A stretch of 64,000 nucleotides of DNA from Lunularia cruciata (lineage: Eukaryota; Streptophyta; Marchantiopsida; Lunulariales; Lunulariaceae): contig OX419757.1 of assembly GCA_948567375.1 (NCBI GenBank), forward strand, positions 50,837,665 to 50,901,664. The letters are read 5' to 3'. Shown piece by piece: positions 1,656-63,480 of the stretch. Made by a program: the position numbers and the translations under genes. Numbering within the stretch: position 1 is the first letter of the stretch; each line of letters opens with the position of its first letter. The notes under the pieces were generated by a model that was not told the origin of the DNA, searched no databases, and worked only from the letters and a program-made list of their open reading frames with translations.

Positions 1656-3590
1656 TTTGAATCAATTCTAAAACCATCTAAAAGAATTACTCAACTATAA
1701 TTGAAAGTCCTCAATCAAAGGGGAAGCATGAAGCTCCAACACCCTTCTTTCTGCAAGAGAGGATCCTAGCTCTATCAAGTAAAAGCTCATTTGTGAGGAT
1801 GCTAGAAATGGTGTAAGTGTGCATATGCTCACTAACCTTTGCTTGAAATTTCCTAAAGTCCAAGGACACAAAGTCTGCAAATGGGGATAATGCTATACAT
1901 GCCAGGCTTGGCAATAAATCCCAAGCCAAACAAAGAGATATTTGGAAATCATAGGTAAATGAATCAACATCCACAATAGGTGGCAACAAATGTGCACCCC
2001 TTGTGTAAGAACCTATCTGCCAAAAGAGGGGCCACTAGTGCCCATACTCCTAAGTAAGTTGCCGGTGCAATGCCCTCATGAGATGTGATACCACATCCTT
2101 CCATAACTACAAGAAGAGAAAACTATAACCGCCACCAATCATCGGAAAACTATGAGAGCATATAAGGTCCTAAGAGTGTGGAGAAGGTGTGTCACATAGA
2201 ACTATGAAAGGACAATAGATGTGGAAGGAGCATTTCTATGGGAGGATATATATGTTCCAAATAAGATGCTCTCGGGATATAACATCTCAAAAGGAGGGAG
2301 TCGACCACCTGTGTGTTCCCAAACCTGGGGAGGAGAGGAGTAAAGGCAATAGCTTGAATCAAAGTATTTGAGACAAAAGAGCTACAAAAGTACTCATCTC
2401 CAAGAGGGGAGCCCAACAATGTAGGCTCCTCTCTTGTAATAAGGATTGGAATCTTGATGGGAAGTTAGAGAGAGTAAGGACTATATGAGCTCTAGATCTT
2501 GCATTTATGAGTCTAGACTTGTAAACCCAAGGTTTCAAGACTAAGTGTAAAAGCCTACATTATACATACTACTTCTTCCGAGGGGCCCAAGATGTGGGTG
2601 TCATTCGATAGGGATGTAAAAAGACATGTAGGAAAGGCAGCAGCCACCTCATCCAAAGTTGTGTAGTGAGATATGGCAAATAATGGCCTTCCCAAAGGAT
2701 CTCCTTGGCATGTGCCCTCTACCAATGTCAACTAAGTGAACTCTCTGATGGTAATATGATGGCTATATAACAATGATGTCTATATACCATAGAAAGTATG
2801 CACAAAAAGGAATCAAGGAGGGAATCTGATCCCCAACCAAACAAAGAGCCCAAAACAAAGCTAGTTGGGAAAGGGTATTAGAAACATCCACTTGAAAAAC
2901 TACCCAATCAGGGTGGAGATCCAAGGAAGCTCTCATGCTTGCAATAACCATCTCACAGCCTCTTGATGTGGCTATAGCATACTAAAGAGGAGACAAGAAA
3001 TATGAGAAGGAGTGTCGGAGCTGTAAAAAAAATTGGTGCATAAGGCTAAACATAAGAAAACATCCTCTATGGCTATGGGGAAAACACTTGTAGTCTCCTT
3101 GGATAGAGCAACAAGACATGATGCACAAAGAAAACAAGCAGCACCCACGAGCACCAAACTTGAGGTAATATGTTGGCAAAAAGAAAAAAGAAGGGGGAAG
3201 CTTGAATTTTGTCATATCAAGGGAGAGACAATCAAGTAAATGCTCAAAATAAAGTCTTGAAGAACCACCTGCTGAGACATAAGGAGAGTGGAGTAAAGCA
3301 TGGGCAAAGAAGGACTCTATAAGATGTAGCTCCTCATCAAGGTGATAATCATGGATAAAGGATGGAAGGTCAAGTGTGGATGATGGATGGAGATCTTGTA
3401 AGGCCGATAAAGTATCTACCAAGAAAGCTATTGGTTGTTAGGGTGAGAGTGCTTAGATTGCTTGTTGATACTCCCCAACCTGGCATAGTATCAAGGAGCA
3501 ACATAAACAGTGATGCTCTGGAGGTGGAGCATGGGCTTTATGTAGACTTTATGATATGTCTAACAACTGCTTAGGCTAGGATGGTGTACT

Positions 3591-3694
3591 TGTAGTACTC
3601 CGAGGACAAGAGAGGAGAAAGAAACACAAATTACACACTCATTGTAATACTCTGAGGACAAGAGAAGATAGAGAAACACAAATTACACACTCAA
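3591..3694 (+). repeat. 52-bp tandem duplication at LTR start
   Basis: Units 3591-3642 and 3643-3694 both start TGTA(G/A)TACTC and end with ACACAAATTACACACTCA. The copy at 53485 has a single unit, so the duplication is specific to copy A. Confidence 0.8.
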
Positions 3695-4383
3695 CATCCG
3701 GTGCCCCAAAGGAGCACCTTCTCTTTATTATATAAACAAAGAGGATCTCCTCCTAGGAAGCTCCACCATAGGATTAGGCACACAGATAGGTGACCTGTCA
3801 GCAAGCTTCACCCTTGGATTACTTACTTGGATGGGTGACATGTTGGTCTAGGTCTTATCTGGTTGGTCAAACAAGCTTTGACCAGAGGGAATCTTTTAGG
3901 GAATCTTCCTATAGGAGTCTCAGAATCACGTGAGTAAAGTACCGTTGGAAAGCTCTCAATGAGACAAACCAAGGAGGAAGGGAAGGCCAGCCATTCCTCT
4001 GTTGAGGGGGGGGAATTTGTACATTTTCAAGGCCTAATTCATCCGTTTAGGCCTCTAAAATTGCCTTCAAAGATTTTAGGTATATTTTGGTTCTTATTCT
4101 ATTAGTAGAAGTGCCCTTTTGGTGATACCTCTTTCTGATCTGTTTAGTCCATCATGTGTAACATCCTTCCAGATGTTACCAAACCAATTCTCACCTTTAA
4201 ATCATATGTCTAGCTATTGGTTCTAAGGTTCTCACGTCTATTTCGGTTTCTGCTCTCTTAGTATAAGTACTCTTTTGGTGATACTTCTATCTGATCTATT
4301 TTGACCATCATGTATAACATCATTCTAGATGTTACCAAACCAAATTTCACATCTAGATCATATGGCTAGCTCTTGGTATTGCA
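3591..4383 (+). mobile_element. solo LTR, copy A
   Basis: Collinear over its whole length with 53485-54225, 50 kb away and in the same orientation. It begins TGTAGTACTC and ends GGTATTGCA; the other copy ends GGTATTACA, a TG...CA type terminus. Flanks GTACT (3586-3590) and ATACT (4384-4388) look like a 5-bp target duplication with one change. There is no internal retroelement sequence beside it, so it is a solo LTR. It interrupts the minus-strand LINE region. The first 52 bp are duplicated in tandem. Confidence 0.75.
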
Positions 4384-17379: not shown

Positions 17380-18200
17380 ATAATTTGCCAAAGGGATTAC
17401 TCTTCAATTATGAAATGCCCTTCAATATTGAGTTATTGCTAGGAAGTACTCTAGTGAGTAGACCAATCTATTGGCTCTCACCAAAGAGTTAGATGAGCTT
17501 CAAACAACGCTGACAAAATTGTTGGAAAAGGATATCATACGGCATAGTACATCTCCTTGGGGAGCACCAATACTATTTGTTCCAAAGAAGGATGTAGGAC
17601 TTCACTTTTGTATTGATTACCTTGGCCTCAATAAACAAACAATGAAGAATGCATATCTCTTGCATCAAATTGATGACTTGATTGATCAATTGAGTGGAGC
17701 ATGATACTTCTCCAAGTTGGATCTCCAAAGCATCTAATGGTAGATTCTCATTGATAGAGAGGATGTGCAAAAGACTACCTTTTGTACAAGGTATGGGCAT
17801 TTTGAATGGATAGTTCTACCTTTCAGGCTCACCAATGCTCCAACAATCTTCATGGATTAGATGCATTGGGGGTTGGATGGGCTATTGGACCAGTACATGG
17901 TGGGGTTCTTGGATGATATTTTAACCTATAGCAAGATGGAGGTAGAACATGCAAATCACATGTGAGAAGTCCTAAGAAAACTATCAATGGAAGTTTTATT
18001 GCAAGAAGTCTAAGTGTGCCTTTTGGCAAAAGGAAGAGACACTCTTGGGTCATAAGATCTCATCAAAGAGGATCAAGATGGAAGAAGAGAAGATCAATGC
18101 TACTACTGATTAGCATACTCCAAAGGATACCATAGAAGTACATGCATTTATTGGATTTGCATGTTTTCATCCACTATTATGCTTGTGTAGCCACACCATT
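17380..18200 (+). pseudogene. chromovirus reverse transcriptase remnant
   Basis: Clear gypsy RT blocks: [20 protein letters not shown] (thumb entry), then [15 protein letters not shown], a broken YFSKLDLQS, FCTRYGHFEW, and the catalytic box GFLDDILTYSK with both Asp codons kept at 17912-17917. Continuous open reading exists only at 17471-17704; elsewhere TGA and TAA codons and shifts interrupt it. Confidence 0.85.
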
Positions 18201-50600: not shown

Positions 50601-51180
50601 GGGAAAATAACTAATGAAAAAATATATTCGTAGGGGGAGAGGAAGAGTACTTGCTAGTGCAAGTACGGAATTAGTGCAAGTGTTGATTCAGTAAACCTGG
50701 AGAGGAGAAACCCCGTTAACAAGAGACAAAAAAGAGGGTCCAACAAGTCTTTGTGGGAGTCCACGGCAACCATGTTCTCTTCATTCATAGCGTATTTGAC
50801 TCGTCTGGTACATTCACTCCCTCCTGGTTGAAGATATCACGAAGACGGACGGGTAGATTCCTTGGCAGGAGGAATGTTTCAGCTTGGATATGGGAGTGGC
50901 CTAAGAATCTTTGTTTATTTCATTCTCTCGTGTCTCTTGGATAAAGCTTGACTTGGGGCTGTTATCCAATCTAGTCAAGACGAAAGAAAAAGTAATTATA
51001 AGTAATATGTGAACATGTGCTTATTTCTTTCCCATCATATATATTGCCGTTCAAACTTCTCCCTAGACTTCAAAGTTTTTCTAATCAGTATTTAGTCCTC
51101 GACCAAAGTTAACATCATGTAATGTCTCAACCAATAAATAAAAGTCCTCACATGATAGGGATTGTTGGGTATATATATAT
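44651..51180. other. mixed intergenic DNA, no recognisable gene
   Basis: CpG-bearing blocks at about 44.65-45.1, 47.7-49.3 and 49.4-50.9 kb alternate with AT-rich sequence. The open frames (for example 50487-50089 minus, 132 codons; 49054-49353 plus) have no recognisable domain. An imperfect repeat of about 30 bp (GGAGAGTT...GGAGAACCG) occurs at 48900 and 49081. Confidence 0.4.
49198..49222. repeat. 10-bp hairpin, GTGTTCCGGC / GCCGGAACAC
   Basis: Perfect GC-rich 10-bp arms around TATTC. It resembles a factor-independent terminator stem, but that has no meaning in a plant nuclear setting. Function unknown. Confidence 0.85.
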
Positions 51181-51432
51181 AGAGTAGCCTGAAGGAAAGC
51201 ACAAACTAGTGAGAAAAGAGCATGAGACTACAACAGTCCTAATCCTAAGAGACCAAGAATACCAACAGAGATAGGGCTCGAAGGTATAATCCAAGAAAAA
51301 GCATATATGTAGAGTAGCCTGAAGGAAAGCACAAACTAGTGAGAAAAGAGCATGAGACTACAATAGTCCTAATCCGAAGAGACCAAGAATACCAACAGAG
51401 ATAGGGCTTGAAGGTATAATCCAAGAAAAAGT
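51181..51432. repeat. 130-bp tandem duplication, nearly identical
   Basis: Units start at 51181 and 51311 (both AGAGTAGCCTGAAGGAAAGC). They differ at only about three positions up to GTATAATCCAAGAAAAAG. A recent duplication at the edge of the LINE copy. Confidence 0.9.
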
Positions 51433-51439
51433 ATTAACA

Positions 51440-52401
51440 ACAAGCACCTTAGTTTCTAAGGAGAGGTAGTCTACTCTTGATGGTGTGGTAGAGGTCTTCC
51501 AATGGTATGTCTTGTAAGTAGGGAGGGAGTACCCCTAGCCATGATAGGTATGCTTGTTGCAGTTCCTAATCAATGAAGACCCAAAGCTTGAGTGTATTGC
51601 AAAGTGATTGATATGTGTTGTCTGTAACAGTAAGTGAGGTTGGAGGACTGCCAATGCCCTTCTTAAGTGCAAAGAACCACCATGTTTCGTCCTTGAGGAG
51701 ACTATCCAAGTGGCAATATAGGCAGCCAAAGATCTCAATCAAAGGTATCTAAGGAAAGTCATGGTGTGCATAGTGGTCCTCCTTGCCCCTAGAAGCAACG
51801 GTCATTGCTTCTCTTGCTTGTACGCCTACCCATGCCAATGACTTTGGTTGTAGAGGGTTCACCGCCACCACATTATGCAAGGTCTGATGATCATGCATAT
51901 GATGGATAGGTGATTATGGTAAATCAAACCATCGCTCAATCTAAACTTGGGCCCGTGTAGCTCATAAGATGTGATCCACACCATCATGAACTGGATCATG
52001 GACTCTAGTGGGCTCTTCCTATTGCACATCATAGCAATTGTATGCCAAATAGGTCATATGGGGAACCACATTGGTCCAAAAGCTATATGAGAGTTGGATG
52101 TGAGAGATCTAATTTCAATTATAGTGCTATGGTAAACTACTCAAAAGTAAAATGGAAGTCATCAATCAAGGATGAAGCTTAGAGCCTTTCTCCCCATAAG
52201 GGAGGATCCTAGCTTTGTTAGGTAGAGGTGCATTGGTGAGAATACTGATAATGATCTTTGTGCAAGGATGCATAGGCTCATTAAGACCCATCCAAATCTT
52301 CCTAGAATCTAGGGATGCAAAATCACTAAACTTGGAGAGTGATGTGAGGCAATAAGTCATGAGCCAAACAAAGATATGACTAGAAGGCATAAGTGCTTAA
52401 A
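51440..52401 (-). mobile_element. LINE remnant copy 2, left half
   Basis: Aligns with 560-1165 and 1660-1960 of LINE copy 1, same orientation: for example CAATGAAGAC..A.AGC.TG, TGCATAGTGG and GAGGATCCTAGCT. It is cut at 52401 by the LTR retrotransposon. The copy resumes at 62121. Confidence 0.65.
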
Positions 52402-52854
52402 TTGTCACACCATTTGTAGCGTCGCACCTAGATTGCCCGGACTTTGGAGTAGTAGTGTTGGTAGTCAAGAGTATTTTGGTAGTTACTCATAGACTACTTG
52501 TTGACGGACTGATTTTGTGTTTGGAGTATTGATTACATGGTGGGACCCACCGTCACTTGCACCGTCTGGACCGTCGGGTGTGCCATCAGCAGGACCGTTA
52601 GGGTTTGAGATCTAGCTCGAGTCTAGGAGGTATACTTTTGAAGTGCAGCTCCAAAGAGCTCACTTCTTTGATGTTGAGCCTTTGAGTTCTTGGCTATGGT
52701 GGACAGAGGCCGGTGAGCATCACCTTGATTCTCTTAGCTAGAGTGGGTGTGACTTGACTATAATCACTGTCCAATTGTTGGTAGATCATTGAGTGACGGA
52801 TCAAGTACTAATCTGATTGAGTGTGATTTGAGTTGTGTAAACAAACTGATTATA
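52402..52854 (+). repeat. 5' LTR of methyltransferase element
   Basis: Starts TGTCACACCATTTGTAGC and aligns to its end with 61618-62068. Shared words include TTGGTAGTCAAGAGTATTTT and ACCGTCACTTGCACCGT. The two repeats differ at several dozen positions, so the insertion is old. Confidence 0.85.
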
Positions 52855-53167
52855 TCCCATAGAAGTGAGGTCAAGGGGAAATTGGGTGCAAGAAGTGAGA
52901 GTGTTGGTTGTATCTCCAAGACTCACTAATCGTTGGTAGCTTGATCAGAGTTTAGGTTTTCCCTAGTGTGCAAAAGCTCATTTGATTGATATAGATTTGG
53001 CAGTGAGGTAAATGGTGTGAAGAAGCATTGGCCAAATTTTGAGAAAAGAGAAGCAATTTTGAGCAATGGTTGTGATTTTGACCTCAAAACGTGAAAGCAA
53101 GACTAATCTGGTGCAAGTTGGGAACCAGTCCTCGTGAAATTGTGATTTGGAGAAACCATCATTTCAA

Positions 53168-53484
53168 TTTGACTTGAGTGGAGAGTTAGTAGAGGATTTG
53201 ATGGTCAGCCAACTTTAGGGATTTGTCAAATTTTTGTTGTAGTTTATGTCAAATTTTGGCCAGATTTGGAGGATGTTTGCTCAAGTTGGAGGAGTTTCAC
53301 TAGATTTTGAGAGGGTTTGAAGTGGCAAGAAGAAAGACCTCATTTTGCTTGAGTGGAGAGTTAATAGAGGATTTGGTGGTTAGCCAACTTTAGGGATTTA
53401 TGTCAGATTTTGGCCAAATTTGGAAGAGTTTCACTCAAGTTGGAGGAGTTTTGCCAGATTTGGAGAGGGTTCAAAGTGGCAAGA
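53168..53484 (+). repeat. ~175-bp tandem repeat in leader
   Basis: Unit 1 starts at 53168 and unit 2 at 53343, both with CTTGAGTGGAGAGTTA and GCCAACTTTAGGGATTT. Unit 2 is interrupted by the solo LTR and resumes at 54231; the junction restores GGCAAGAAGAAA as seen in unit 1. Confidence 0.8.
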
Positions 53485-54225
53485 TATAATACTCCAAGGA
53501 CAAGAGAAGAGAGAAAACATAGATGTCACACTCAATTATCTGATGCCCCAAAGGAGCACCTTCTCTTTATTATATAGACAAAGAGGATCTCTTCCAAGGA
53601 AGCTCCACCATAGCATTAGGCACACAAATAGGTGACATGTCAACAAGCTCCACCCTTGAATTACTTACTTGGATGGGTGACATGTCGGTCCTGGCCCTAT
53701 CTTGTTGGTCAAACAAGCTTTGACTAGAGGGAATCTTTTAGGGAATCTTCATGTAGGAATCTCAAAATCACGTGAGTGAGGTACCGCTGGAAAGCTCTCA
53801 ACAAGACAAACTTGGGGGAGGGGATGAAGGCCAACTTTCCCTCCATTGGGTGGGGAAACCTACACATTTTTGAGGCCTAATACATCCATTTAGGCCTCTG
53901 AAATTGCCTTCAAAGATTTCATGCATATTTCAATTCCTACTCTATTAGTAGAAGTCCCTTTTTGGTGATACCTCTTTCTGATCTGTTTAGTCCATCATGT
54001 GTAACATCCTTTCAAATATTACCAAACCAATTCTCACCTTTAATCATATGTCTAGCTATTGGTTCTAAGGTTGTCAAGTCTATTTCCGTTTCTGCCCTAT
54101 TAGTAGAAGTACTATTTTGGTGATACTTCTATCTGATCTATTTTGGCAACCATGTATAACATCATTCAAGATGTTACCAAAACAAATTTCCCATCTAGAT
54201 CATATGTCTAGCTCTTGGTATTACA
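53485..54225 (+). mobile_element. solo LTR, copy B, nested
   Basis: Collinear with 3643-4383. Begins TATAATACTCC, ends GGTATTACA, and is flanked by perfect 5-bp direct repeats CAAGA (53480-53484 and 54226-54230). No internal retroelement sequence is attached. It landed in the leader of the methyltransferase element and so is younger than that insertion. Confidence 0.92.
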
Positions 54226-54230
54226 CAAGA

Positions 54231-55920
54231 AGAAAAGCATCATTTAGGCGTTTAGAGGCTTTAAAGCATAGGGCGATGCTTTGAGAGGCTACAAAGGCCA
54301 TAGGGCTATGGGCTATGAAGGGCCAGCAAGGCAGCTTGTTGGCATGAGGTTAGCTAATTTAGAGTAGATTTTGGTCATTGTTTGGCAAAATCTACTCATC
54401 TTGTGAGATTATGCGCAATAGGGTTTGACCCCTAGATCTCTTGTTCCTAGACTTGTGCTCTAGCTAACTTGTCCACCCTCACTTGTTGTCCTAGTGACTA
54501 TTCCACTATTATCTATACACTTGTAGCTTTGGCTAGGAGAGGCAGTTTGATCTTATTCTTGGTGATCTTGGTAGCCTAGGAAGTAGATAACTCATATAAG
54601 GTCAAATGCTAAATGGTGGCAAAGTGAGTCCAGTGTTGATTTATGAGATTTTTTTTAGCTTTCTTGTGATTGGACCCCCCTCTATTCTTTGCTTCCTATT
54701 TTTGCACCATGTTTATGTGAGGTGCCTTAACTTTAGAGCGTTGGTGCTCTGGTGTAATTCTTGATAGTGAGACTGGAGTGATGACCAATCAGACTATATA
54801 TATTTCTCTTTAGTGAAGTAGGAAATGATGACCTATAGACCATGAGAGTGTGTGTTGTGATGGCAGGTTATAGGTTGTCCTTTCTCTTAGTGTAGTTTTC
54901 ATAATTAGAGCTACATTAGTTGGTGACGTTCAGTTTGTGTTGTTGGTACTTGGTGGGATACTTGCAGAGGTTCCGGTTGCGGGTTGTAGTTCTTGGTTAC
55001 TTTATCACGACGGAGTACTCTAGGGATTTTGGGAAGATAGTGCTACAATATGCAAGGGGCTTAATCAGAGTGGTGCTCATTATTAGCCTATATCTTAGAT
55101 CCCAATGAGGGAGGAGATTGACTCTGAATTAGAGTTTGACACAAGAGTTGATTTAGTTCAGAGTGCACTTGGTGTGTCTTGTAACACTCATTTGTGCATG
55201 TGTATGGTATTGTGATATTTAGCTTGGTATTACAAGTACTTAAGAGATATAATTTATATAGAGATAAAGGATGGTTCTATATTAGTCATGGTTAGCTAAA
55301 GTTAGTCATAGCTAAGATAGAGGGGACCTTAATTTAGAGGAAGTAGAAAAGATGAGCACCACTATTTTGGATTTTAGTGTGTTGACTTGGTCTTATTCCT
55401 AGGTGTTTGGCTTTGAGAAAACAGTTGAGAACTCTTGGGCCTGCAAGCCTTTTTGTTTTGGATTCTTCTTTAGTCCAAGGATAGCCCATGTAAAGGAATC
55501 CTTGACTTAGTGGTTGGGTCAAGATAAGACCACATGCTTAGGGGAATATGCCCATGTGAATGGATATTCCTTTCTACTTTTTGACTTTACTTGACTTTTA
55601 GTCTAGTAACTTGAGTTACTACGGTAATTAGTAACTTTGGTACGTAACTATTTCACAAGTATATAAACAAGGGGTGAGGAGGTAATCATCATCCTTTCAT
55701 TTGCAACTATCTCTCTCTCACTGAGTTCTCTAGTGAGCAATGTCTTGAGTCTTGGAGTGTTAGCCTTGGAGGAGTATGATGGAGTTGGGGTTCCTTGCCT
55801 TCTTAGTCCATGGTGCACTACCATAATAGCCATCAGAGGTTCATCCTGAGTGAGAGACAGGCCGGCTCATAGTCCGCACTATTGTTGTGGGACATAGACA
55901 AGATTTAGGGGGCCTCCAAA
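54231..55920 (+). other. leader of methyltransferase element, non-coding
   Basis: Between the nested LTR and gag. I recognise no domain on either strand. The length is unusual for a gypsy leader and may include lost coding sequence. Confidence 0.4.
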
Positions 55921-56029
55921 GGTGTGTTACTTTGAGTACCCATGGGTACCATTGAGTTGGATAACTTCATCTAGGAGTTTGATAGTTGGTGTGATCTGTA
56001 GCAGATGTGGAACTCGACTTTGTTCACAC

Positions 56030-57050
56030 CTTTCATGGCATGGAAGGGGTTATTTTAGCAATTGGAGGGTTTGCCAACGGAAAACTACCATGAGTTTAGG
56101 AGAGCTCACTTGGAGGAGATTGAGCTATGGAGACAATATTGGTCTCCGAACTATGTCTCCATCACTTCACGCACAATTTCTAAGGGTAGATTGGCAATAC
56201 TTATGAGTTCTAACTCTAGTAGCGTTGGTGGATCTCTTGGAGATGGTGCTACTATGAGTGGAGGTACTACTATAGGAGGTGGTATAGTGACACGGTTTAA
56301 CCCCATGTTGGAGTTCTTCTAGTGTTTGAGGAAAAACTACTAGGGGGTGCGGATTGACAAGTTGAGAAGCTTGCAAGAGTTCCAGTAGAAGGTTGGAAGG
56401 AGCCTATGCAAGACATACACTCGCATGAGATGGCTGATCAATTCTACTCAAGGAGTTACTGAGGCCCAAGTAGTCCAATTTTGGTATGGAATACTGGATA
56501 GGGAGTTGCAACATAGAGTTTGTGATCCTACATTGCTTTAGGCTACTTTGCCTACTTTGGTGGTGGTCTTTGGTTTCATTGAGTATATTGAGCTCAACAT
56601 GGTGGAAGAGAGAGTGGTGACATTTGGATTTGGTAGGGAGACCTCATCCATAGCTGCTACTTCTTCCAAAGTGCACCATACCATGTCTATTTCTAAGGAT
56701 AGGGTGGACAACCTAGATCATATAGAGTGAGTGGAGAGCCTAGTGTGGCCAGACCCTTACCTTCATTTTTGGGTCAACAACAACCTGTGAGTGGTGGTGT
56801 TGCTTGTTGGACTTATGGTAGATCTCATCATAGGACATAGTGCACTCAAGGCAATAGACCTGATGCCTTTGCTTCATCTCAACCAGCACAAAGACATCCA
56901 AAGTTACAAAGTGGTAGGGTTGCTATGGCAAGTGGTAGAGGAACTCCAGGTAATGGAAGACAAGGTGGTAGAGGTGGTGGTAGAGGATCTACACCTAGTA
57001 GAGGTGCAATACATGCCTTTACTTTTGATACAACCATGGCTACTCGGATT
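56030..57050 (+). pseudogene. gag of methyltransferase element
   Basis: Reads LEGLPTENYHEFRRAHLEE early, then the capsid stretch LRSLQEFQ, stop, KVGRSLCKTYTRMRWLIN, then GVTEAQVVQFWYGILDRELQ, typical of retrotrans_gag. A CCHC-like zinc knuckle lies at 56805-56843 (C-W-T-Y...H...C, with the second Cys now Tyr, a G-to-A change). An RGG-rich tail (GRQGGRGGGRG) follows near 56955-56995. Stops include TAG and TGA at former Gln/Trp/Arg-like sites. Confidence 0.75.
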
Positions 57051-57434
57051 GAGTAGTTGCTCCATGGCTAGTATGGCCATAGCTCAAAGGAGATCAGATT
57101 TAGGTGTTGAGGCTTCCACCTTATATGCGGGTGATAAAGATGTCTTAGACTTCATGTGCACAATAGCACAGGTGGATGCATCTGCCATAGTGACTAGGAG
57201 TGCAATACATGCTCCAGAACCTAAAGGAGCATTAGTGAAGTTGGATCTACAAAGAAGAGAGGCTAATAGACAGGTCAAACTTCCCCAACCTTTTATACTC
57301 TTTGAGGCACTATAGACAACATCTATGGCTCTTAAACATCCTAGGGCAAGTGTGGTAGGTGATGATGGGGTGCATGATGGACTACCTACTAGTAAGCCAC
57401 TTGCTATTACACAAATTGAGTTTAGCACAATGTT

Positions 57435-57447
57435 GGGGGGGGGGGGG
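57435..57447 (+). repeat. 13-bp poly-G run
   Basis: Uninterrupted G run between gag and protease. It may be a replication-slippage frameshift site or a sequencing artefact. Confidence 0.9.
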
Positions 57448-57779
57448 CTCAGTTGATTATGCGCTTTCCATTATTCTCAACCAATGACATGGTATATTGG
57501 GAGTTGACCTAACCCTAATGTTTTGGTTGGCTGCCATGCTTTGTGACAATAGGGATGATGTGGTTCCTACTACTAGATCAAAGGTGGTTGATAGTAGAGT
57601 TGATTTGGTTGAGGAGCATAGGATCCGCTCAACGACCAGTGGTTTATGGCAAGGCAACAAAGGCTAGATTGGATGGTTACCAACTAGACCGGCCTTTGAG
57701 CAAGCATGGTTTACACTTGGGGTTGTCATGTTGGATAACCAAAGGGAGGTTTTTTTGGTTGGTGAGACCTTTAGGGAAA

Positions 57780-58090
57780 GTCAATACACCATAGAGAGTC
57801 TTACTTGACTCTGGTGCGCAACCACTTATGTTGTGGAAGGTTGCAAATGTTGGTCTAGAGTTACAAAAGACCGATGTAGAGAGGTGTCCATTTTAGATCC
57901 AAACATCTCTAGGGGGTGGTTCTACATAGTAAATCATATGTGGAGAGCTTGTTGTCCATATTCAACTTGGTCATCTGACTAATAGCTTTGTGGTGAAAGC
58001 TCAAGCCATTGTGACCATGGCTGAGTTGTATGATGTGTTAGTTGGGAGAGTAGTGTTGTATCCCATGGGTTTCAATATTGGCTATTGGGA
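57780..58090 (+). pseudogene. aspartic protease of methyltransferase element
   Basis: Reads RVLLDSGAQPLMLWKVANV with the catalytic Asp-Ser-Gly-Ala at 57807-57818, then FVVKAQAIVTMAELYDVLVG and MGFNIGYWE, as in retropepsin-like domains (hydrophobic-hydrophobic-G near the end). At least two stops interrupt the frame. Confidence 0.8.
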
Positions 58091-58499
58091 GGAGATAGCC
58101 TACTATAGACCAGGTTAGCAGTCTATTGAGGGATGAGTATGTCATCTACTAGTATGCTTTAGTAGTGGCAGTCTTGGCTCATTACAATCTGGGACCATGG
58201 CAACTTCAGTTTCAACTTCCAATGGTTTTTTACTTGGCTTGGTGATTTATTGAAGGAGAATGCCCATGTAGAGGATACTCCAGTACTAGAGGAGATCACT
58301 CAGATTTGGATAACAAGTGGGATCATTCCATCCACCTTGGATGTTCCTTTGTGGAGTTCAGAGGAGGCATTGCAGCGACATGCACGTAGATCAGTTGGTG
58401 TAATAGGCTTGGAGTGGAGCCTTTGTACCACTAGGTGACCAGTGTGAGGATGAGCCTCTAGAGTCAATTACCTTGATACCTTTGGATACCACACTCATT

Positions 58500-59480
58500 G
58501 CTTGGCAGTATCTAATAGAGGGAGTATGTCTATTAGAGTTTTTTGGTCGGATTAGCATTGGACTAGTTGCGATGCTACAAGCGGGTATATGAGTACAGAT
58601 GTACTTGTATGTGGAGAGAGATGAGACTACTAGGCAAGTCTCTCTGCATCATGTGGCATAGTTGGCCTATTGGTATCTTGAGTTATTACCAATGTCAGTA
58701 TACAAGGTTACTAAAAGTCCTTCCTAAAAAACATTTCCTTGTTGGGGGTGCATGATTTGGAGAGACATGGGCTTATTAATTTGGTGATTTTTGGACGGCC
58801 ATGTCAGGGACAAGCTGATCAAGGTTTGGTTCTTTAGGATCCCTATTCTGGTATGTTTTGGGAGATGTTACGGATACTACAACATCTTTAGGTTCATAAG
58901 TCCATTTCTCCAGCTTACCTTTTGGAGAATGTCCCTTTGATAGGTTATTCTTGCACCTGAGTGGTGATGAGTATGCATCAAGTCCATTCTTAGATGAGAC
59001 TTGTTTTGTTGTTAGATACAGCTAGAGTGGGGTCATGAGCTCATTGTCTTTGTCTTTGGTGGATGAACCTCTTACTTAAAGAGGTTCTACAATGCACTTA
59101 TGATGACATTTGGCGACTAGACCACAACATTGTTGATGACATCTTGGATGTTGGGCGTCAATTTCAGATGGTGGTAGTGGTTGATAGATCACCTATGGTA
59201 GTGGTGAACCTAGTTGGACAACCTAGAGTCGCTTTTCCTCCACTTATGAGTTTCTCAAGCTCCTATGATTTTGAGAGGGAGGCCCTAGACTAGTTTGGGA
59301 ATCATAGTTATAGTAGTTGGTAGAGCCCAACGCCAACAAGACAGAGCGGGAAATGGGTTTTCTCACTAGTATTACCACTATTCTAGTAATGTCAGAGGCA
59401 TCCAAGCATTAGATGTTAGGTCAAGCTATGGACCTGAACCATTTGACCTAGATTGTGAGCCTTGGTTTGGCAGAGTAGTG
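58500..59480 (+). pseudogene. cytosine-5 DNA methyltransferase domain in retrotransposon
   Basis: An enzyme of this class moves a methyl group from S-adenosyl-methionine to C5 of cytosine in DNA. Motifs appear in family order. Motif I (58530-58562) reads LLEFFGRISIGLVAMLQAGI, the F.G.GTG AdoMet loop. The acidic YLYVERDE follows (motif II). Motif IV (58790-58815) is GRPCQG, with the catalytic Cys codon kept at 58802-58804. Motif VI is LLENVP (58919-58936). Motif VIII region: LLLDTARVGS, stop, AHCLCLWW (59005-59060), where the family has AHR.R. The target-recognition stretch lies at 59130-59290 (DILDVGRQ, then VAFPPLMSFSSSYDF). Motif X is LGQAMDLNHLT (59416-59450), usually GNA. The PCQ and ENVP forms are nearer to Dnmt1-like or bacterial-type enzymes than to plant DRM (PCN). 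Decay: eight or more stops and at least two frameshifts. Identity is sure; specificity and closest relative are unknown. Confidence 0.88.
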
Positions 59481-59900
59481 TAGGATGCGCTTGATAGGCA
59501 TCACCACTTAGACACTTGTGAGCTCTATGCCTATCAAGACAATTTAAGCACATGTTGGAGGTGATGGACCAAGTGGGCATGGTATTCTTAGGACATAGCT
59601 AGTGGCTACTAGGAGGAGTGGTCTACTTGGAGTCCATCCAAGAGAGCGTGGGCTACTTGGATTACACCCTTGGTCTACTTGGGATGCAACTAGAGGACGT
59701 ATGGAGCTTGCAACTAGATAAGAGGGAGTTTTTCACGCTAAGGTTAGGACCTCTAGTGGTTGGGAGCATGACACTACTGCTCCCAAGGGTCCAATGTAGC
59801 AGCTAATCAATATGCTACCACTCCTACAATAGTAGATGATACTTGGACCCAAGCTTATAGGAGAAGAAAGACAAAGAGTTTAGAGGTTCTTGAGGAGGTA
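59481..59900 (+). other. linker between methyltransferase and RT
   Basis: An open stretch (59618-59806) reads with acidic and hydrophobic residues but no domain I can name. Confidence 0.4.
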
Positions 59901-60750
59901 CACAAGCTGTTTTTCCTTTAGTAAGAAGGATTTGGGTGCTCTAAAAAGACTTGGTATTTTAGATTGAGCTTATTAGTGATACATCAATTTTTTGATATCC
60001 CTATAGAGACAATGACATTGAGCAAGTATTGATTTAGAGCCAAAGTAGTGACCTTTTTGAGGCTGGTTTGGTGGAGATTTCACATGGAGAGTATACATCA
60101 ACTATAGTGATGCCAACCAAGAAGGACATGCATGGAAACTACATAGATAAGCAGATGTGTGGAGACTACCATTCTATCAATTGACAAACTAGGGCTGATT
60201 GGTATGCCATGCCTACATTGGAGGAGATCTTTGATGTGATTGGGCATGCAAAGGTCTTTAGTACTTTGGATCTTCAAGCATGATATCATTAGTTGCCAAT
60301 CAAGGAGGAGGATAAGTCCAAGACAACATTTTGGGCTATTGATCCTCACGGTAAGGATGTGTTATATCAATAGAGGTTCTTACTATTTGGGTTAAATAAT
60401 GCTCTTGATGAGTTCTAGAGTGTCATGGATAGGATCCTATATGGATTGGATTTTGCTCAATGCTATATTGATGACATTTTAGTCTATAGCATTACTATGG
60501 AGGAGCATGAGAGACAATTGTTGGAGATGTTTGAGAGGTTGAGATCTCATGGACTCAAATTACATCCTAGGAAGTGTAGGTTCTTCCACAAGTAGGTTGA
60601 GTATTTGGGTCACACTATTTACTCTAGAGGACTTGATGTTCAACCGACCAAGGTGGAGGTTATTGTGCATATTCCTTGGTCTACGGATGTGAGCAAAGTG
60701 CAATCATTCCTTGGGTTAGCAAACTTCTATTGTCATTATGTCAAATGATT
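59900..60750 (+). pseudogene. reverse transcriptase of methyltransferase element
   Basis: Reading frames give VMPTKKDMHGNYIDK, then MCGDYHSIN, RADWYAMPTLEEIFDVIGHA, FSTLDLQA, LFGLNNALDEF, and the catalytic box CYIDDILVYS with both Asp codons intact at 60470-60475. FLGLANFYCHYVK follows near 60712. These are the gypsy RT blocks in order. Stops such as TGA at Tyr/Arg-like and TAG at Gln-like positions break the frame. Confidence 0.9.
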
Positions 60751-60759
60751 TAGTGCCAT

Positions 60760-61270
60760 TGCCAAGTCCTTGACAAAGCTGACCAAGCTTACACAGAAGT
60801 GGTGTCATGGAGATGAGCAAGAGAGAGCTTTTTTAGAGCTCAAGGAGAGGTTGACATCTGCTCTTATTTTGAGGAGACCAATTAGAGAACAACCATTTCA
60901 AGTTCACAAAAATTGGAGTATGTTGGAGCTTGGAGCAATGCTCACCCAACATGATGATGGAGAGAAGGAGTTTGTGGTGGTCTATGCTAGTTGCTCCAAC
61001 AATTGAGCAAAAGCAAAGTATAGTTTATATGAAGGAGAATGCATGGCAGAAATTTGGGTGGTAGCACATTTCCAATGTTACCTATTTGGTAACCCCTTTA
61101 CTCTCATCATTGATCATCAGCCACTAAAGTGGTTGATGGAGTCCAATAAGCTTTCAAAGAAGCTTGCATGATGGGATCTGACTTTACAAGACCATGATGT
61201 CAAGATTATTCTCAAAATTGGACTGGTGAACCGTGATGCAGATGGGTTGAGTAGAAACCCATGTCCTAGC
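60760..61270 (+). pseudogene. RNase H of methyltransferase element
   Basis: Reads AFLELKERLTSALILRRPI, then MLELGAMLTQHDDGEKEFVV, YSLYEGECMAEIWVVAHFQ, LIIDHQPLKWLMES and VNRDADGLSRNP, the full pattern of the gypsy RNase H-like domain including the terminal N..AD.LSR. Only two in-frame stops were seen over about 500 nt, so this part is better kept than the rest. Confidence 0.9.
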
Positions 61271-61573
61271 CAACAAGATCAGATCGGAGCACATTGGCAT
61301 GGTGAGACAAATGAGGAGATGGTGTCAAGTTGGCATACATTTGCCTTTCTTTGTATATTTTCTGAGGCTTTGGTGGTGTCTCTCTCAACACATGCAAGAA
61401 GAGCTATTAAGGTCACAAATCTAGAGAGTGGAGATAGTGGTATAGTTCAGGGAGACATTCATGATGATGTCTTAGTGATGGACTATCTTTGCACTAGTTT
61501 TGTGGGTGGCACAATGGTACTTTAGAGTCCATGTATGACTTATGTGTGAGTTGTGCTTCTATTGTATGATGGT

Positions 61574-61615
61574 GATAGCAATGTATGTTGTGTAGCAATG
61601 TATATACATATGATA
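61574..61615. repeat. 42-bp direct repeat, left of 3' LTR
   Basis: GATAGCAATGTATGTTGTGT then AGCAATGTATATACATATGATA. The same 42 bp, with a single change, lie at 62079-62120 just after the 3' LTR. Confidence 0.9.
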
Positions 61616-61617
61616 GT

Positions 61618-62068
61618 TGTCACGCCATTTGTAGCATTGCACCTAGTTTCCATAGACTATGGAGTAGTAATGTTGGTAGTCAAGAGTATTTTGGTAGTTA
61701 CTCATAGACTATTTGTTGACGGAAGGATTTCATGTTTGAGGTAGTGACTACATGGTGGAGCACACCGTCACTTGCACCGTATGGACTGTCGTGTGTACCG
61801 TTAGTGGGACTATTAGGGTTTGAGACCTAGCTTGAGTCCAAGGGGTATACTTTTGAAGTGTACCTCTAGAGAGCTCACTTCTCTAATGTTGGGCCTTTGA
61901 GTTCTTAGCTATTGTGGATAGAGGCCGATGAGCATCACTTGTATTCTCTTAGCTAGAGTGGGTGTGGCTTGATTGTAATTAGTGCCTAGTTGTTGGCAGA
62001 TCACTAAGAGACAGATCAAGTATTGATCTGATTGAGTGTGATTTGAGTTGTGTAAAACAATTGATTAT
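61618..62068 (+). repeat. 3' LTR of methyltransferase element
   Basis: Starts TGTCACGCCATTTGTAGC and aligns with 52402-52854. No clear polypurine tract precedes it; the 42-bp repeat takes that place. Confidence 0.85.
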
Positions 62069-62078
62069 GTGTGATGTT

Positions 62079-62120
62079 GATAGCAATGTATGTTGTGTAG
62101 CAATGTATATACACATGATA
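62079..62120. repeat. 42-bp direct repeat, right of 3' LTR
   Basis: Second copy of the 42-bp sequence. The LINE copy resumes directly after it (AAATCCACTATGG, matching CATCCACAATAGG near 1968). Confidence 0.9.
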
Positions 62121-63480
62121 AAATCCACTATGGTGATGGGTGATAAAAAAAGGAAGTCCCTTGTGTAAGAACTTGACAACTAAATGAGGAACCACTAAAA
62201 CCCATGCTATTATATGTGTTGCTTTTGTTGTAACCTCTTTCTCTATGAGGTCACATCTGCCCATGATTATGCGATGAGCTATATGTTGGTTATACCACTC
62301 ATTTGAGAGACATGGGAGCATACATGGCCCTAAGATTGTGAAGAAATTATGTCAAATTGTGCTATCAAAAATCCACAAGTATGGCAATAGTGTCTTTGTC
62401 GGCAAGAAAGTTTATGATAAATATAACACCCTAAGGGAGTTAAGACAATGTAAGAATAGAATATGCCATATGAGCTATGGCTTGAAATTAGATATCTAAG
62501 ATGAATGAACTTCAAAAATTCCCTCCTAGAGGAAAGCCCAAATCTCTGAAACCACCTATGTGGAATTGGAATCTTGGTGGGAAGTCAAATTTGGGCTCTT
62601 GTTCCAATCTTGAAGATGCAAACAAGTGATCTCCTCAATTAGTGGTGCATGTGTAGAGCAAAAAAGCACTTTAGAATCAAGTGGAAAGAGGCTACCGTGT
62701 TGGATAAAAAGAAAGATAGGAAGACCACATCAAGTCGCACAAGGAAAAGACGTAAGGGATAAATGGTGCTAAGAAAAAATGGTATTGGTAAGAGGAATCT
62801 GCCTACAACATCTAAGATATTAGAGCTATGCAAGTTTTATGGTCTACAAATATTTGGAGCATCTAGAGAAGCATCACTTAGTGTGATTGCACCAACTAAT
62901 GATCTCTACAGAGCAATGAACACATTGTCTAAAGTATGATGTAAAATATGAGAATGCAAATGGTATCCCTAATTCTAAAATTATATGTCCTTATGCACTC
63001 CTAAAAGAATATGTCAAATGTTACATCAATCACTCCATATAAATCCAAGGCTAGAGGAATAAAGATATGATCTTATTGCATACCCTTATACTTGGATACC
63101 TTGCTTGTTGCCGTTCCACTTGCTGCCCATCAAGGAAGATGTGTGATCATTCTTTTGAAACTATGTCACATATTAGAGTCCATAACCACAACATCTGCTT
63201 CTATCACCCAATCATCTTGTATCAAGTATAAGTCTACATTGACTTGTGTTATCTACAAATCATACCAATGCTCCTTTTAAGCAAGGTATCTACTCTCTTA
63301 TGCCATGGAAAACACTATATCCTTGATAGCATTGGGGGTAGCTATCATATGTCCTCTAAAAGGATACCATGTCATATGGACTGCTATTGCATCTAGTGTA
63401 GAACAAAACTCACAAATGAGTAAGGAAGATGTAGATAGGTGACCAAACCTAAGCTAAACCTCATTGATGTAGATAAAGTA
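62121..63480 (-). mobile_element. LINE remnant copy 2, right half
   Basis: Continues the alignment with copy 1 (about 1968-2640): CCCTTGTGTAAGAAC, GGAATTGGAATCTTGGTGGG and others. Beyond about 62760 the similarity to copy 1 is weak by eye, but no other family is recognisable. It ends against the chromovirus LTR at 63483. Confidence 0.55.

Follow-up and report, generated by a model that had tools for sequence, protein, structure and literature searches.

A predicted DNMT3-type methyltransferase in a family of split-repeat Ty3/gypsy retrotransposons of the liverwort Lunularia cruciata

Chromoviruses are Ty3/gypsy retrotransposons with a chromodomain on their integrase. A cytosine-5 DNA methyltransferase (MTase) of the DNMT3 type has been described in two other kinds of retrotransposon: KnitGypsy-Dnmt3 of the charophyte Klebsormidium nitens is a gypsy element with DNMT3 in its polyprotein and a DIRS-like order of repeats, and SymbioDIRS-Dnmt3 of dinoflagellates has DNMT3 in Pol, occurs with two domain orders and is active on CG in yeast (both according to PMC5890265). 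The element studied here lies at positions 52403-62120 of a stretch of 64,000 nucleotides from Lunularia cruciata (hereafter the window, i.e., this stretch at its full length) and is the decayed fossil of an abundant Ty3/gypsy retrotransposon. An earlier note, made from the letters of the window alone, had described an MTase built into this element; the association is supported as family-wide and is of the same kind as in the Klebsormidium element.

The methyltransferase and its element family

As the note had stated, motifs I, IV, VI, VIII and X follow each other in this order on the plus strand of the window, between an aspartic protease and a gypsy reverse transcriptase (RT). They are spread over three frames (motif I in the frame of 58353; PCQG, ENV and motif VIII in that of 58352; EREMGF and LGQAMD in that of 58351), because the window copy is broken: its MTase domain contains at least 10 stops and changes frame twice. 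The boundaries of this domain (58448-59490), close to the span of 58500-59480 given before, were obtained by alignment to the natural open copy L015. The match to PF00145 expected by the note was found: one of three window pieces matched weakly (E 0.0036, 17.2 bits), under the cut-off of 22, whereas the first open reading frame (ORF1) of the intact copy L015 lies above it (E 1.5e-7, 31.6 bits).

In a sequence ranking, the element MTase resembles DNMT3A/B far better than DRM2, and its motif order is unpermuted, with I before IV, VI, VIII and X; the predicted fold of the L015 MTase spans the whole DNMT3 catalytic domain. From the ranking and the predicted fold, the enzyme is assigned to the DNMT3 type. 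Its separation from DRM rests on the unpermuted motif order and the far better match to DNMT3A/B, and not on the PCQ motif, which the note had taken as the distinguishing mark. An identity as DRM was rejected on these two grounds, and motif order together with the ranking likewise led to the rejection of a bacterial origin; families not contained in the ranked list were not counted as excluded. ADD and PWWP domains were not found in L015 ORF1 (1142 amino acids; Pfam at E 0.01 matched PF00145 only), and algal and protist DNMT3s are likewise said to be devoid of companion domains (PMC12344493). Concerning motif IV in the alignment of retrotransposon MTases, the proline of PCQ is replaced by glutamate (ECQ) in 44 of 91 rows, with the cysteine unchanged. 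To our knowledge, ECQ for PCQ is unusual among C5 methyltransferases.

The search of the 566 Mb genome assembly for PF00145 yielded 2161 candidates; scoring was applied to 123 of them, all of which matched, mostly over approximately profile positions 48-120, and some frames are open for up to 1428 amino acids. The first 24 loci fetched (L001-L024) contain 18 distinct further copies of the element, L006 and L017 representing a single copy. Host genes account for L001-L004, which were classed by eye as a DNMT3 exon, a permuted DRM, a CMT-like exon and, in L004, a second DNMT3-like piece; L019 is a motif-X exon of a host gene, and host DNMT3 exons are situated in L043 (reverse strand, 2813-4383). 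The MTase precedes RT in 18/18 distinct further copies, and the protease precedes the MTase in all 17 copies whose fetched piece extends that far. Pieces of 8.9-9.0 kb length contain the integrase in 15/15 and a PHD finger in 14/15 cases. The MTase-bearing Ty3/gypsy element is thus supported as family-wide in this genome, and the one-off insertion considered in the note was not borne out. As all 18 copies were found through PF00145, the figure of 18/18 applies to copies with a recognizable MTase and gives no number for RT copies devoid of it.

In less decayed copies, ORF1 comprises gag with a CCHC knuckle, protease and MTase, and ORF2 comprises RT, RNase H, an integrase with H2C2 zinc finger and rve (DDE) core, and the PHD finger. 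The two lie in the same frame and are divided by a single TAG, with the context TAG CAG CCA in 17 and TAG CAG CTA in two of the 19 copies compared, among which is that of the window. UAG-CAR-YYA is the readthrough signal of the tobacco mosaic virus type; the conserved UAG-CAG-CYA fits it and hence represents a readthrough-type signal, which, if functional, would render the MTase a Gag-level product. Judged from this context, the MTase is probably made at the level of Gag. The PHD finger behind the integrase matches PF00628 with E 2.2e-10 (L015 ORF2). Its nearest solved counterparts are those of CHD4, KMT2D/C, PHF12, KDM5B, DPF and PHF21A, with AIRE and UHRF1 lower down, and several of these bind histone H3 with unmethylated K4.

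Proposed role of the methyltransferase

The explanation preferred here, to which a probability of roughly two thirds is given, combines UAG readthrough, self-methylation of the complementary DNA (cDNA), tethering by the PHD finger, integration from a circle and a single capture of the MTase in the green lineage with a later move. In detail, the UAG would be read through occasionally, such that Gag-protease-MTase is the main product and Pol a minor one; the MTase would be carried in the particle and methylate the cDNA of the element de novo, such that the new copy would bear the marks of silent plant DNA already on arrival. If the PHD finger belongs to those that recognize H3 with unmethylated K4, it would tether the integrase to silent chromatin.

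The most serious alternative is that the MTase acts elsewhere than on cDNA: on host DNA, where it might elicit or dampen silencing, on RNA, or within Gag, as a component with a structural or nucleic-acid-binding role. Expression at the Gag level, provided that the UAG works as proposed, would suit a structural part, and the discussion of the 2018 paper leaves effects on RNA and on the host open (PMC5890265). However, the catalytic residues are conserved in relatives from liverworts and green algae, with the cysteine kept in 90/91 and the glutamate in 91/91 rows of the retrotransposon MTase alignment, which argues against a merely structural part, since such a part would not need both residues; equally, the predicted fold covers a complete DNMT3 catalytic domain. 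We regard such another role as possible but rather doubtful.

Ratios of nonsynonymous to synonymous differences (pN/pS), pooled over 13-18 copies, amount to 0.37 for the MTase, 0.39 for RT, 0.28 for RNase H, 0.32 for the PHD finger and 0.44 for the protease, and to 0.51 for the integrase, 0.55 for both the gag part and the integrase tail, 0.57 for the linker between protease and MTase, and 0.75 for the stretch after the MTase. Constraint on the MTase thus appears about equal to that on RT. This evidence for selection is only mild, because the copies are young (pS around 0.06), 8 of 18 MTases contain stops and the ratios are uncorrected for CpG decay. A further point that counts against self-methylation of cDNA is the failure to obtain methylation in yeast with the enzyme from Klebsormidium, a result that its authors call inconclusive (PMC5890265).

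Relatives and the number of captures

The search with the MTase yielded 97 proteins, the named ones belonging to Marchantia, Calypogeia, Sphagnum, Haematococcus and Monoraphidium and most others being environmental; among the best 120 of 3539 matches to RT, the names include Riccia, Closterium and Klebsormidium. The closest named relatives within these two sets are liverworts. According to our own profiles, 69 of these 215 proteins possess both MTase and RT, the MTase being situated before RT in 18 (MTase-first) and after RNase H in 51 (MTase-later). The integrase follows the MTase in 45 of the 51 MTase-later proteins, and MTase, RT, integrase and PHD finger are all present in 45/69. MTase-bearing relatives of the element exist in Marchantia, Calypogeia, Sphagnum and Closterium, and the MTase-later arrangement is found in Haematococcus and in many environmental sequences. 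The MTase was seen in 17/17 proteins of Marchantia, 1/3 of Calypogeia, 4/13 of Closterium and 0/3 of Klebsormidium; RT proteins without MTase are partly ORF2-only and hence do not establish its absence. Concerning the PHD finger, it is present in 2/2 Haematococcus and 1/3 Klebsormidium proteins. P0069, a gypsy protein that bears a PHD finger and, according to our own profile, an MTase, is filed under a metagenome-assembled genome of a Minisyncoccia bacterium and most likely represents eukaryotic DNA binned with the bacterium. A pattern scan of genome contigs gave 28 matches with no relative among them, and a scan of viral contigs gave 65 matches with six weak relatives (28-37%), which were used as outgroups only.

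In the RT tree (145 rows of at least 280 amino acids), all rows with MTase or PHD finger fall into one clade of 108 rows (support 99), the 37 rows outside belonging to animals, flowering plants and others. The MTase-later rows form one clade (98), in which 37 of 40 rows bear the MTase, and two K. nitens RTs lie within a part of 64 rows (93) shared with liverworts. For the cleaned MTase tree, eight rows were dropped (three viral ones, P0072, P0093, P0114, P0115 and P0207) and 28 of 56 MTase-later rows were kept; the retrotransposon MTases are then united in a single group (100/99), inside which the MTase-later clade is nested (99/98). MTase and RT distances are correlated, with r = 0.63 for 40 proteins (0/2000 shuffles), 0.59 for the 32 MTase-later (0/2000) and 0.83 for the eight MTase-first proteins (4/2000). 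The simplest reading, favored by both trees, is one capture and one relocation of the MTase; the direction of this move within the polyprotein rests on a weak root.

The note had left it undecided whether the liverwort MTase is of the same lineage as those reported before or a separate capture. The trees favor one capture, the comparison with KnitGypsy-Dnmt3 itself being one with its published description, as the MTases of the Klebsormidium element stand outside the trees. A capture of DNMT3 by the liverwort elements that was separate from those in the Klebsormidium element and in the MTase-later elements would agree with the two places of the MTase (18/69 before RT, 51/69 after RNase H), with the three K. 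nitens RT proteins fetched, in which no MTase was seen, and with the 2018 paper, which argues for a capture within the K. nitens lineage (PMC5890265). Against it, the RT tree and the cleaned MTase tree group both arrangements, the distances correlate, and the median MTase identity between arrangements (34%) equals that among MTase-first rows (33%); furthermore, the repeats found here have the same DIRS-like order as that described in K. nitens (PMC5890265). Independent capture is therefore considered unlikely. Several results nevertheless speak against the preferred explanation: the MTase-first rows form no clade in the RT tree but are scattered among MTase-less rows (11 changes), which include many ORF2-only proteins; the full MTase tree (99 rows) places the DNMT3 and viral rows within the MTase-first rows, next to long branches; the clean MTase tree was obtained after row dropping, with only two DNMT3 rows as outgroup; and no PHD finger was seen in the proteins from Marchantia, Calypogeia, Riccia, Sphagnum, Closterium and Monoraphidium, many of which are partial or end earlier.

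Split repeats, the window copy and known systems

The repeats of the element are not one pair of long terminal repeats (LTRs), as the note had assumed, but split direct repeats: the element begins with repeat A (450 bp) and ends with repeat B (around 103 bp), and B is also situated before the second A, giving the order A-body-B-A-B. Among chosen copies, B-A-B was found at the 3' end in 9/9 and A at the 5' end in 8/9; of 10 further copies, drawn at random from 57 of the 123 rows, nine had A at the 5' end and eight had B-A-B. No repeat B was found at the 5' end in the 5' pieces of chosen or random copies. The element ends are TGTC...GACA, and 4-bp target duplications flank 6/6 chosen copies with both ends read and 4/7 random copies, with AAAT in the window copy. 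The two random copies without B-A-B in the fetched piece, and the three of seven without target duplication, likewise count against the preferred explanation. At the border between B1 and A2, L009 and L012 read GACA-GC-TGTC and the window copy GATA-GT-TGTC, and a G-rich tract, AGGGGGG(C/T)(G/A)A and once AGGAGGG, stands directly before B1 at nine borders between body and B1. In four copies the body starts with CATCAGAG after A1, a site that the window copy has not kept; from a 7-base match to the usual initiator-Met primer-binding site, we take it to be a candidate site only. Kimura two-parameter distances between A1 and A2 range from 0.007 to 0.025 in seven copies and amount to 0.110 in L014 and to 0.175 in the window copy (51 transitions and 18 transversions in 452). 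At its 5' end, L068 (element strand, 15-888) has two A repeats in head-to-tail arrangement, and a further B and A lie beyond the element's end in L034 (481-801).

Gypsy-type RT, RNase H and then a DDE integrase are present in L015 ORF2, as in Ty3/gypsy elements, and so is the short target duplication made by an integrase (4 bp); in place of the same LTR at both ends, A is found at the 5' and B-A-B at the 3' end. The split direct repeats are a property of DIRS elements, whose repeat order, as given in PMC5890265, is matched by that found here and might indicate an element of the DIRS type, mobilized by a tyrosine recombinase. However, DIRS elements have such a recombinase and no target duplication, whereas the present element has an rve integrase core with H2C2 zinc finger, gypsy RT and RNase H, and TG..CA ends with 4-bp duplications, and the Pfam matches of the two L015 ORFs scanned include no recombinase family, such that a DIRS-type origin is very improbable. 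That the motifs represent a chance run or the one-off insertion of an MTase fragment into a single element has next to no probability, as the MTase is present in all 18 further copies and has homologues in other genera, in spite of the window score under the PF00145 cut-off.

For integration from a circle as part of the preferred explanation, RT would make LTRs of the order B-A, with the G-rich tract before B1, and the integrase would cut circular cDNA at the B/A junction GACA-GC-TGTC, giving the permuted order A-body-B-A-B. A single capture of the MTase in the green lineage would have been followed by its relocation in the polyprotein. A wider proposal remains tentative and falls somewhat short of even odds: one ancient green-lineage gypsy clade with a single DNMT3 uptake, an integrase-linked PHD finger, dispersal across green algae and liverworts with the MTase shifting between Pol and Gag control (UAG readthrough), and circle integration inside the RT-made LTR, i.e., a self-methylating and histone-reading element with a Gag-level dose of MTase.

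The features of the window copy are given in Table 1. Scans of the window for tRNA and Rfam families gave no matches. Directly left of the element lie two tandem copies of 130 bp, 96% alike (51173-51432), and a fragment of another gypsy RT, with around 30% identity to that of the element, is situated at 17498-18170.

Table 1. Features of the element copy in the window (positions of the whole stretch)
Feature	Positions	Strand	Basis or remark
Target site duplication AAAT, left	52399..52402		same letters as 62121-62124
Repeat A1, 5' end of element, starts TGTC	52403..52853	+	85% identity to A2 over 452 bp, gapless
Extra DNA relative to copy L012	53123..54316		alignment gap; short tandem repeats in part
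Extra DNA inside gag region	55179..55871		alignment gap relative to L012 and L015
gag region, broken	55873..57059	+	tblastn with L015 ORFs; CCHC knuckle present in other copies
Retroviral-type aspartic protease, LLDSGAQ (DSGA at 57807)	57795..58100	+	reading frame and alignment
DNMT3-type cytosine-5 MTase (predicted), broken	58448..59490	+	motifs, PF00145, alignment to intact homologue L015
In-frame TAG, ORF1/ORF2 boundary, context TAG CAG CTA	59797..59799	+	TAG CAG CYA in 19/19 copies
RT, Ty3/gypsy type	~59963..60682	+	tblastn with L015 ORF2; Pfam RVT_1 in L015
RNase H, Ty3/gypsy type	60683..61222	+	L015 Pfam scan and alignment
Deletion site, integrase and PHD finger lost	61513..61515	+	alignment to L012, in which ~1556 bp are present
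Repeat B1, ends GATA (other copies GACA)	61515..61615	+	repeat comparison
Repeat A2	61618..62068	+	repeat comparison with A1
Repeat B2, left-truncated, 3' end of element	62068..62120	+	94% to B1 over 53 bp
Target site duplication AAAT, right	62121..62124		equals left copy

In fold and motif order, the element MTase is similar to animal DNMT3A/B and to the host DNMT3 of the same genome; unlike these, it is part of a retrotransposon polyprotein, with neither ADD nor PWWP among the Pfam matches of ORF1. With chromoviruses, the element shares a chromatin-reading domain after the integrase, which may tether it as chromodomains do; here, however, a PHD finger replaces the chromodomain, the repeats are split and an MTase is present. 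In one element, DNMT3 as the writer of a silencing mark is combined with a PHD finger as the putative reader of silent chromatin. SymbioDIRS-Dnmt3 is similar in having DNMT3 in a retrotransposon and two domain orders, but is, as described, a DIRS element with tyrosine recombinase, whereas gypsy RT, DDE integrase and 4-bp duplications are found here. A gypsy element with split repeats and 4-bp duplications raises the problem of how RT and integrase come to disagree on the end of the LTR.

The main text of PMC5890265 contains no word beginning with PHD, Marchantia or chlorophyte, and abundance in liverworts, PHD finger, conserved UAG, second arrangement and shared ancestry were not found in the open-access literature searched. 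As liverworts are manageable in the laboratory, self-methylation of cDNA by a retrotransposon becomes directly testable in them. The most similar system is KnitGypsy-Dnmt3, which, by its published description, has in common with the present element the gypsy domains, an unpermuted DNMT3 in the polyprotein and repeats in DIRS order; compared with it, the PHD finger, the conserved UAG, the many liverwort copies and the second arrangement in Haematococcus and environmental sequences distinguish the element described here. The combination of gypsy and DNMT3 has been known from K. nitens since 2018, and the liverwort element is a wider variant of it, by which the report from a single charophyte becomes a widespread family.
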